Assembly (NCBI GenBank): GCA_030613245.1
Contig: JAUWMI010000043.1
Span: 1-38,428, forward strand
DNA: 38,428 nucleotides
Origin: Candidatus Sumerlaeota bacterium
GTDB taxonomy: Bacteria; Sumerlaeota; Sumerlaeia; MWCT01; JAUWMI01
Reading direction: 5' to 3'
Shown: positions 21,974 to 29,586 of the stretch, in pieces
Numbering within the stretch: the stretch's first letter is position 1
How the letters are laid out: each line of letters starts with the position of its first letter
Notes under the pieces: model-generated
What the model was told of the DNA's origin: nothing
What the model saw: only the letters and a program-made list of their open reading frames with translations
Databases searched by the model: none
Position numbers and translations under genes: made by a program

Positions 21974-22001
21974 GTAAGGGCGTATTGCAATACGCCCCTA
22001 C
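21974..22001. repeat. GGGGC palindrome, intergenic copy
   Basis: A 28-base palindrome with 14-base arms and one mismatch; its core CGTATTGCAATACG is the same as the copy inside the HgdB-like gene at 28648. Confidence 0.9.
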
Positions 22002-22166: not shown

Positions 22167-22192
22167 TAGGGGCAATTCATGAATTGCCCCTA
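22167..22192. repeat. GGGGC palindrome overlapping the COG2122 gene's 5' end
   Basis: A perfect 26-base palindrome with the centre AATTCATGAATT. Its AGGGG and central ATG are 6 bases apart, so the element itself resembles a ribosome-binding site plus start codon. That ATG (22179) is in frame with the gene that follows. Confidence 0.9.
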
Positions 22193-22199
22193 TATCAGG

Positions 22200-22973
22200 A
22201 TGACCGACATGTACGAACCACGTACCTATCGTAATTTCGTCCAGGCGAAGAACCTCAAGAGATTCACTGTTCGAATTGAGGAGACTGACCTGTACATTTC
22301 CGTAGGGGCAGATTATAATCTGCCCTTACTCAACGAGGCGAGCACTGCAGCAAGTCAGGCACGCCAGATTATTCAAACCTACATCCACGCCCATCCCGAA
22401 TTTCAGACTTCTCTCAAACCGCTGCCGCTCACGCCTGATACCCCTCCATTGGTGCGCACCATGATTGAGGCCAGCGCGTCCGTGGGCGTCGGCCCAATGG
22501 CTGCAGTGGCTGGAACCATTGCGGAACACGTTGGCCGTGCGCTGCTCGAGGCAAGGCTGGCCCCCTTCGACCGTTCGCCGGAAGTCATTGTCGAGAATGG
22601 CGGCGACATTTTCCTGCGCTCCGTCATGGCGCGCACAGTCTTGATTTATGCAGGGAATTCCCCCCTATCAATGAAGGTAGGAATACGGGTAGACCCCATG
22701 CCTAAGGGTCTTGGGGTCTGTACGTCATCCGGAACTGTTGGCCACTCGCTCAGTTTTGGACGGGCTGACGCGGTAATGGTCATTTCATCCTCCACCACAC
22801 TTGCGGATGCAGCTGCCACGGCGCTCTGCAATCGAGTGAAAACTGAAGCGGATATTGAGCCGACCCTGGCTTTTGCAGAGACGATTGAACGAATTCAGGG
22901 AGTGGTAATTATTATGGACGATCGCCTTGGCGTGTGGGGGGCAGTTGAGCTGGTTAAACCCGGCGCAGAGTAG
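22200..22973 (+). CDS. UPF0280/COG2122 ApbE-like protein, probable sulfide-assimilation partner
   Basis: The product has 257 residues. The family is seen in YEPRTYRN at the start, VGVGPMAAVAGTIAEHVGRA (about 95-114), VENGGDIFL, KVGIRVDP, LGVCTSSGTVGHSLSFGRAD and TTLADAAATALCNRV. COG2122 proteins share the ApbE fold; the Methanosarcina acetivorans member MA1715 is linked to sulfide use in homocysteine synthesis. The adjacent NIL-ferredoxin and DUF39 genes complete that set. Starts at 22200 or 22209 are best; CAGGA at 22196-22200 suits 22209. A palindrome copy lies in frame within the gene (22302-22329), and the TAG stop is the first three bases of another. Confidence 0.85.
   Translation: MTDMYEPRTYRNFVQAKNLKRFTVRIEETDLYISVGADYNLPLLNEASTAASQARQIIQTYIHAHPEFQTSLKPLPLTPDTPPLVRTMIEASASVGVGPMAAVAGTIAEHVGRALLEARLAPFDRSPEVIVENGGDIFLRSVMARTVLIYAGNSPLSMKVGIRVDPMPKGLGVCTSSGTVGHSLSFGRADAVMVISSSTTLADAAATALCNRVKTEADIEPTLAFAETIERIQGVVIIMDDRLGVWGAVELVKPGAE
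22302..22329. repeat. GGGGC palindrome inside the COG2122 coding sequence
   Basis: A 28-base palindrome (GTAGGGGCAGATTA and its complement, one mismatch) read in frame as about nine residues (VGADYNLPL) in the N-terminal part of the protein. The reading frame stays open on both sides. Confidence 0.85.
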
Positions 22974-28072: not shown

Positions 28073-28114
28073 AGCAGTTCATGACTTGTGCGCCTCAGGC
28101 GTAACTGCCCATAC
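28073..28114. repeat. Long-form palindrome upstream of the HgdB-like gene
   Basis: Arms GCAGTT and AACTGCCC enclose CATGACTTGTGCGCCTCAGG, the same asymmetric core as 23058-23104. Confidence 0.8.
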
Positions 28115-28175
28115 AATCCATAACCAATCGCCTATACGCGTCCATTGTTATGCTTGATCGGGAAACATGCATTGT
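28112..28175. repeat. 64-base direct repeat, copy 1 (palindrome flank)
   Basis: It begins TACAATC right at the end of the long-form palindrome and contains ATTGTTATGCTTGATCGG. It aligns without gaps with 28226-28289 at about three quarters identity. Confidence 0.75.
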
Positions 28176-28201
28176 GATAACTAATTGAACCGCAGCCAGA
28201 A

Positions 28202-28227
28202 TAGGGACGTTCAATCGAACGCCCCTA
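28202..28227. repeat. GGGGC palindrome, short form, upstream of the HgdB-like gene
   Basis: A 26-base palindrome with two mismatches and the centre CGTTCAATCGAACG. Confidence 0.8.
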
Positions 28228-28289
28228 CAATCAGTAACAAATCATTCATACGCACCTATTGTTATGCTTGATCGGACAACATATCAATG
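28226..28289. repeat. 64-base direct repeat, copy 2, reaching the HgdB-like start codon
   Basis: It repeats 28112-28175 but follows a short-form palindrome instead of a long-form one. Its last bases are the ATG of the next gene. The remainder of the 27810-28286 gap shows nothing recognisable. Confidence 0.75.
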
Positions 28290-29411
28290 AAACGAAAAAT
28301 CGGCATCACCACAACTGTCCCGGTTGAAATCATCCTCGCTGCGGGCGACATTCCCGTTGACTTGAACAACGTATTCATCACTTGCGATGATCCGAACCAC
28401 TGGGTCAACGTGGCTGAGGAGCACGGCTATCCGCGTTCGCTGTGCGGGTGGATCAAAGGGATTTATGGCCTTGTGATTGAGCGCCACCCCGTTGATGCGG
28501 TGATTGTCGTCACGCAGGGCGATTGCAGCAATACCATTTCAATGATGGAAACCTTCCAGCTCGCCCCTTCGCTCCCGCGGTGTTCTCCATCTGCCCAGGG
28601 TCACGCGGAGTGCGCAACAAGTTCTCAGCCGCCCGAGAATTCTTCTTGTAGGGGCGTATTGCAATACGCCCCCACCACAGGAGAAATTCCGGTAATTCCT
28701 TTTAGCTATCCGTACAATCGCGATCCTCAACAGCTGCGTATTGAAATGGAGCGGTTGATACAGAAGCTAGGAACAAGCTGGGATCATGTCAACGATACCA
28801 TGCGGACGCTGAGGCCTATCCGCCAGGCTCTACAAGAGCTGGACAGGCTAACATGGGAGGATGGCGTGGTCTCGGGTAAGGAAAATCACCAGTGGCTTAT
28901 CAGCAGCAGCGATTTTAACGGCGACCCTGATGCGTACTACGATGCGCTGCAGCGTTTTCTCAATGACGCACGAAAGCGCAAGCCCGTCACGGCACAGTTC
29001 CGTTTGGGCTACATCGGCATTCCCCCGATCTTCACCGACTTCTACGACTATCTCGAAGCCAATGGAATTCACATAGTGTTCAACGAAGTCCAGCGCCAAT
29101 TCAGTATGCCCTTCAACTGCGACGACCTCGTCGAGCAATACCTTCGCTACACCTACCCTTACGATATCTTCGCGCGCATCCGCGATATTCAGACGGAAAT
29201 CACCCGGCGACACGTTCAGGGCATTATCCACTACACCCAGGCGTTTTGCCATCGCCAGATCGAAGACCTCATTTTTCGCCAGCACCTGTTCGTTTCAGAG
29301 TCACGACGCGATCCAATTCCGATCCTCACAATCGAAGGAGATCGCCCGATTCCTCTGGACGCCCGGACGCGACTGCGGCTCGAGACCTTCATGGCTCTGC
29401 TCTCAGCCTGA
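28287..29411 (+). CDS. 2-hydroxyacyl-CoA dehydratase (HgdB/D-component)-like protein with internal insertion
   Basis: The product has 374 residues. The start region (KIGITTTVPVEIILAAGDIP, VDLNNVFI) and the Cys positions in SLCGWIKGIYG, TQGDCSNT and YTQAFCHRQIEDL match the [4Fe-4S]-binding HgdB family, whose members dehydrate 2-hydroxyacyl-CoAs or are double-cubane reductases. A single protein without a HgdA partner or an activator ATPase nearby suggests a less usual role. Between METFQLA and IPVIPFSYPYN, where relatives run on directly, lie about 40 extra low-complexity residues (about 94-133), including 10 encoded by a palindrome. There is no strong ribosome-binding site. Function inferred from family only. 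Confidence 0.75.
   Translation: MKRKIGITTTVPVEIILAAGDIPVDLNNVFITCDDPNHWVNVAEEHGYPRSLCGWIKGIYGLVIERHPVDAVIVVTQGDCSNTISMMETFQLAPSLPRCSPSAQGHAECATSSQPPENSSCRGVLQYAPTTGEIPVIPFSYPYNRDPQQLRIEMERLIQKLGTSWDHVNDTMRTLRPIRQALQELDRLTWEDGVVSGKENHQWLISSSDFNGDPDAYYDALQRFLNDARKRKPVTAQFRLGYIGIPPIFTDFYDYLEANGIHIVFNEVQRQFSMPFNCDDLVEQYLRYTYPYDIFARIRDIQTEITRRHVQGIIHYTQAFCHRQIEDLIFRQHLFVSESRRDPIPILTIEGDRPIPLDARTRLRLETFMALLSA
28648..28675. repeat. GGGGC palindrome inside the HgdB-like coding sequence
   Basis: A 28-base palindrome (GTAGGGGCGTATTG and its complement, one mismatch) read in frame as part of CRGVLQYAPT. The same core occurs at 21974. Confidence 0.9.
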
Positions 29412-29438: not shown

Positions 29439-29467
29439 CGTAGGGGCAGGTTTAATACCTGCCCTTA
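29439..29467. repeat. GGGGC palindrome after the HgdB-like gene
   Basis: A 29-base palindrome with two mismatches, ends GTAGGGGCAGGT and ACCTGCCCTTAC, 28 bases after the stop codon of the HgdB-like gene. Confidence 0.85.
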
Positions 29468-29586
29468 CTGCCTCTCCTAGATCCCCGCAGCCTCGACCCA
29501 AGCTTGACTCCCTTGAAGCTATTCATTAAAAGTTAATATTATTGCTTCTGGAGAAGCGAAAGACAGAATAGAATGAGGAGGATTCT

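Follow-up and report, generated by a model that had tools for sequence, protein, structure and literature searches.

A GTAG-type REP palindrome at the end of an in-frame insertion in an HgdB-like gene of a Candidatus Sumerlaeota bacterium

We propose, with a probability of roughly 0.83, that a gene of the 2-hydroxyacyl-CoA dehydratase D-component family (HgdB-like) has received an in-frame insertion of about 105-117 bp, the right end of which is a repetitive extragenic palindrome (REP) of GTAG type from a RAYT-spread family, and that this REP copy would have arrived along with some 80 bp of further DNA and been tolerated in a loop of the protein. The gene lies in a 38,428-nucleotide stretch of Candidatus Sumerlaeota DNA, referred to here as the window. 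Coordinates of the features in the window and of the RAYT-like genes elsewhere in the host genome are collected in Table 1.

Table 1. Features of the window and RAYT-like genes of the host genome
Feature	Position	Strand	Remarks
HgdB-like (2-hydroxyacyl-CoA dehydratase D-component family) gene, host of the insert	28287..29411	+	374 aa; from ORF, Pfam and fold
Region with in-frame insert	28562..28682	+	net gain of 37-39 codons relative to relatives
Part of insert before palindrome, about 80 bp	28568..28647	+	no match in host genome or plasmids
GTAG-type REP palindrome, GTAGGGGCGTATTGCAATACGCCCCCAC	28648..28675		right end of insert; reads CRGVLQYAPT; 13 of 14 pairs
Second GTAG-type palindrome, GTAGGGGCAGGTTTAATACCTGCCCTTAC	29440..29468		28 bp past stop codon of HgdB-like gene
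Same-family palindrome copy, GTAAGGGCGTATTGCAATACGCCCCTAC	21974..22001		from genome search
GTAG-type palindrome with another stem, GTAGGGGCAGATTATAATCTGCCCTTAC	22302..22329	+	in frame as VGADYNLPLL in UPF0280-like (PRK04334 family) gene 22179-22973
RAYT-like gene	C1:14616-15152		GTAG palindrome(s) in frame (host RAYT set, L132-L135)
RAYT-like gene	C50:52707-53231		insert's palindrome in frame (same set)
RAYT-like gene	C50:53448-53933		GTAG palindrome(s) in frame (same set)
RAYT-like gene	C65:12288-12866		GTAG palindrome(s) in frame (same set)
RAYT-like gene	C74:8799-9328		GTAG palindrome(s) in frame (same set)

The insert and its host protein

Between the conserved segments METFQL and IPVIPF, the HgdB-like protein is 37-39 residues longer than any of 51 aligned relatives, none of which carries an insert at this site. 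This agrees with an earlier reading of the window from its letters alone (the sequence-only reading), which had described some 40 extra residues inserted in frame and proposed that relatives would lack them; its claim that the frame stays open also holds, the ORF running without a stop across the whole stretch. The insert amounts to about 35-39 codons (about 105-117 bases). In three relatives from the same order the flanks are nearly contiguous, matching up to about residue 95 and again from about residue 132; the nearest relatives, at approximately 51-63% identity, come from a different family of that order and show the empty site at the protein level only. A direct repeat, CGCCCC, at 28562-28567 and 28667-28672 (spacing 105 bp, or 35 codons) may mark the boundaries of the insert, although six bases in GC-rich DNA are suggestive only.

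The protein matches PF06050 (HGD-D) with a score above the cut-off, its best structural matches are HgdB-type subunits (3o3n_B) and the double-cubane protein (6eno), and all alignment-invariant columns are retained. In an AlphaFold2 model built from 32 sequences (mean pLDDT 85.4), residues 102-131, which follow helix 81-95 and precede strand 136-140, have a pLDDT below 50, and the remaining fold is intact; the insert residues are accordingly predicted to form a disordered loop, and the looping out suggested by the sequence-only reading is reproduced in the model. In alpha/beta folds of this kind, the far end of the strand preceding the helix is where the cluster-binding end lies, and judging from the fold the loop should point away from it. 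Most simply, the insert can be read as a surface loop that the protein tolerates, probably translated and, we infer, neutral rather than useful. Just upstream of the gene, the window also contains a decayed GTAG-type palindrome (TAGGGACGTTCAATCGAACGCCCCTA) at 28202-28227, about 60 bp before the start codon, and two imperfect copies of a stretch resembling CGCCTATACGCGTCCATTGTTATGCTTGATCGG within 28100-28280.

The palindrome encodes only a minority of the approximately 40 residues. Both the insert and the palindrome are real, as had been claimed, but the palindrome covers only 28 of the inserted bases, which limits how much of the insert a REP can explain; the remaining 80 bp or so match nothing. 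Searched as DNA, this stretch found no donor in the host genome or plasmids. In the next frame it reads FAPAVFSICPGSRGVRNKFSAAREFFL, followed by the TAG of the REP, and this translation gave no convincing protein match in 61 genomes and no Pfam hit. The stretch also has nothing in common with the other copies of the REP.

A dispersed palindrome family

The palindrome described by the sequence-only reading is present and translated as stated, although it is not the full palindrome that had been reported: the window copy is mismatched at one pair (28650 A / 28673 C), whereas the consensus of the genome, GTAGGGGCGTATTGCAATACGCCCCTAC, is perfect. Within the host genome (4.29 Mb, 97 contigs) we found 43 copies with three mismatches or fewer against none for a reversed control, and the palindrome is therefore not a product of chance. 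Matches to the query elsewhere in the genome covered only the palindrome and a few adjoining bases. At least 117 GTAG-type palindromes, beginning with GTAGGGGC and with varied stems, were present in 683 kb of host sequence compared with none for a control anchor, the sample lying mostly around copies of the insert's own family, such that the numbers for other stems describe the sample and not the genome. Conserved ORFs hold only two of the 43 close copies, in the HgdB-like gene and in a transposase, and about four of the 117 GTAG-type palindromes. The family is thus high in copy number, dispersed and mostly outside genes, its members carry the GTAG tetranucleotide at one end (GTAGGGGCGTATTGCAATACGCCCC(T/C)AC), and five RAYT-like genes reside in the same genome. 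On the strength of the 43 close copies and at least 117 related palindromes, we identify the palindrome of the insert as a GTAG-type REP, and a presumably mobile one. Most of the other ORFs containing a palindrome were set aside by eye, being spurious-looking or having the palindrome before the likely true start (e.g. the NuoH-like ORF at L097). A text search of the literature with the sequence of the element returned unrelated papers only.

Several REP copies elsewhere in the genome have a flank in common on one side only, beginning exactly at the edge of the palindrome. The copy at 21974-22001 and that at position 13700 of L080, for example, are 94% identical over 97 bases from the palindrome edge on one side and differ on the other. 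Because the sharing is one-sided and starts at that edge, carriage of a flank is plausible, and such flanks may travel with the element. The flank common to these two copies reads MESQEP(K/N)FF up to the palindrome, and both may lie within the first part of a gene. In the UPF0280-like gene, relatives are about four residues shorter at VGADYNLPLL, as if the palindrome had replaced part of the original sequence. Composite arrays, made up of several GTAG palindromes with differing stems and conserved spacers in alternation, were seen at L090 4198-4435, L095 9403-9831, L099 9137-9697, L100 9037-9948 and L101 9683-10098, some of them near contig ends. The exact palindrome GTAGGGGCGTATTGCAATACGCCCCTAC also occurs in two genomes from other phyla (G176 and G042) that share no rank below domain with the host, a distribution that hints at horizontal spread.

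Transposases with internal palindromes

All five RAYT-like genes of the host hold one or two in-frame GTAG-type palindromes, some decayed, in the loop that links the HUH motif to the Tyr motif, directly behind the former. The gene at C50:52707-53231 carries GVLQYAPT just after MPNHLHGIIII, with the loop reading HLHGIIIITHD-LKGVLQYAPT-KELR, and its palindrome is that of the HgdB-like insert, read in the same frame. Loops of the others read CKGGARTAPT; CRGVLLNAPD with SRGVYLNAPT; VGATLVVAHD with RAGTRPAPT; and, in a fifth gene split over two frames, VGADLCVCPD with KGEHTGSPL. Assignment to the RAYT group draws on several matches: NCBIfam REP_Tyr_transpos in two proteins (E 3e-17 and 1e-19), scores of 62.7, 70.8 and 41.9 bits against NF047646, which lie below its cut-off of 80 bits, Pfam Y1_Tnp above the cut-off in two of three proteins, the motifs MPNHLH (HUH) and WQRNYYEH (Tyr region), and a weak match to TnpArep 4er8 (E 0.025) with similarity around both motifs. 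The most abundant stem in the host, the GTATTGCAATAC family to which the insert belongs, is that of the C50 gene, and two smaller families have the stems of the C65 gene; the other abundant stems (ACGCCG/ACGCTG, AATTCA, AGGTTT) have no match among the resident RAYT-like genes. Four genomes of the same order contained no matching transposase and no exact GTAGGGGC..GCCCCTAC palindrome, as expected of a recent arrival.

RAYT-like relatives were detected at E values up to 1e-20 in 74 of 386 genomes, and among 63 distinct genes read, 57 have a loop palindrome of at least eight pairs, with differing stems. With a minimum score of 10, palindromes were found in 35 of the 63 loops, whereas an equally long stretch upstream gave one and synonymous recoding would be expected to give 0.4; raising the minimum to 13 left 19 loops, with none upstream and 0.02 expected. 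Since the peptides differ while the palindrome persists, what is kept in the loop is the symmetry of the DNA and not the peptide. One exception is a plasmid relative in Leptolinea (L221), a transposase ORF with no internal palindrome.

Copies were counted with the exact pattern GTAGGGGC-N8..16-GCCCCTAC in 26 genomes with such transposase genes. Every exact copy lay inside a transposase gene in eight of them (G180, G215, G067, G040, G241, G253, G305 and G263). Across the 19 low-copy genomes, 21 of 56 copies were inside transposase genes, although these occupy no more than about 0.1% of the DNA, and a further seven were within 1.5 kb; in G086, with 71 copies, all those among the copies listed had the stem of the internal copy or slight variants of it. 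Conversely, 41 of 45 genomes with no match at E up to 1e-20 had zero copies, and counting copies outside transposase genes only, any were found in about 14 of the 26 genomes with the transposase versus four of the 45 without, a contrast biased by genome sets picked in part for having internal palindromes. Overall, the association is strong and general. A tentative explanation, to which we give slightly less than even odds, is that in a widespread RAYT subfamily the coding sequence contains the transposase's own REP, which yields a loop by the catalytic site on translation and serves as a master copy seeding dispersed REP families, including that of the HgdB-like insert, so that a change of stem would be a change of loop. 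The data agree almost equally well with the reverse order, in which REPs land repeatedly at a loop of the transposase gene that tolerates them. We found no description of palindromes inside a transposase reading frame in the mainly open-access literature searched, and claim no priority.

Origin of the insert and comparison with known systems

The resident RAYT-like HUH/Y1 transposases most likely spread the REP family, given the matching palindrome in one of them, and the internal RAYT copy may have been the source of the palindrome; mobilisation is here deduced from sequence association. The insert would have survived by keeping the frame and by falling within a loop that joins a helix to a strand. 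A variant with a lesser, though appreciable, chance is that the REP landed later, in 80 bp that were already present, either from a separate earlier insertion or because the ancestral loop was longer. The lack of likeness between the 80 bp and other REP copies is in its favour, but no relative among the 51 aligned has a longer loop there, and the one-sided flanks at other copies make joint carriage plausible.

An element specialised for landing in frame within genes and retained for its peptide, like those of Rickettsia, is improbable. The GTAG palindrome is stop-free in two of three frames, and two conserved non-transposase genes in a single window hold such palindromes in frame; nevertheless, copies in conserved ORFs are as scarce as described above, and the frames differ between the two genes (CRGVLQYAPT versus VGADYNLPLL), which argues that no constant peptide was selected. 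We consider it very improbable that the hairpin is an RNA element favoured by selection within the gene, e.g. for slowing translation or stabilising the message: the REP stem is strong and the insert RNA does fold more stably than shuffled sequences (z -2.57), but the repeat brought that stem with it, selection in the HgdB-like gene is not needed to account for the stability, and relatives do without the insert. The least probable explanation is an assembly error at the repeat, for although the assembly is in 97 contigs with a dispersed repeat at the site, ordinary reads are long enough to span a 28-bp repeat, and halves of the same gene stand in register on both sides with the frame open. An in-frame insertion ending in a GTAG-type REP provides another example of a mobile palindrome adding residues to an enzyme with its conserved core kept. 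The REP inside the transposase weighs more than the insert, as a transposase gene holding its own REP in coding sequence would offer a direct answer to how REPs spread and how RAYTs and REPs are matched.

The host protein shares its fold and PF06050 with the HgdB-type subunit of (R)-2-hydroxyisocaproyl-CoA dehydratase and with the double-cubane-cluster protein, at about 17-19% identity to the solved structures, and the loop insert is its sole unusual feature. Rickettsia palindromic elements are about 150 bp long and frequently lie in ORFs (PMC10969869). The parallel to them drawn by the sequence-only reading stands as regards the outcome, a palindromic repeat that joined the reading frame of a conserved protein gene and left it open, but the insert is not an isolated oddity comparable to Rickettsia alone. 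Its element is a 28-bp REP dispersed through the genome, mostly outside conserved genes; in the insert it follows about 80 bp of non-repeated DNA, and only the palindrome and a few bases are repeated rather than a unit of about 150 bp with a conserved peptide. REPtrons (RAYT/TnpAREP with flanking REPs; PMC2817692, PMC8266576) likewise combine an HUH/Y1 transposase with GTAG palindromes, whereas our host has its palindromes within the reading frame, in the stretch from the HUH to the Tyr motif, either in place of flanking copies or in addition to them, and the proteins match the NCBIfam model only below its cut-off. GTAG-tagged REPs have been reported within coding regions of several species and likened to the Rickettsia elements (Di Nocera et al. 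2013, PMC3733652). The host palindromes resemble these in being short, starting with GTAG, numerous and divided into several stem families per genome, with some copies intragenic and read through and RAYT genes in the genome. They differ in that the window palindrome includes the GTAG itself and has 14-bp arms (GTAG...CTAC), compared with 6-9 bp for most published stems, and in that the host transposase holds the palindrome inside its ORF, while the published REPs flank or overlap RAYT gene ends. With intragenic GTAG REPs and Rickettsia palindromic elements already on record, the HgdB-like insert is a further case of a published kind.
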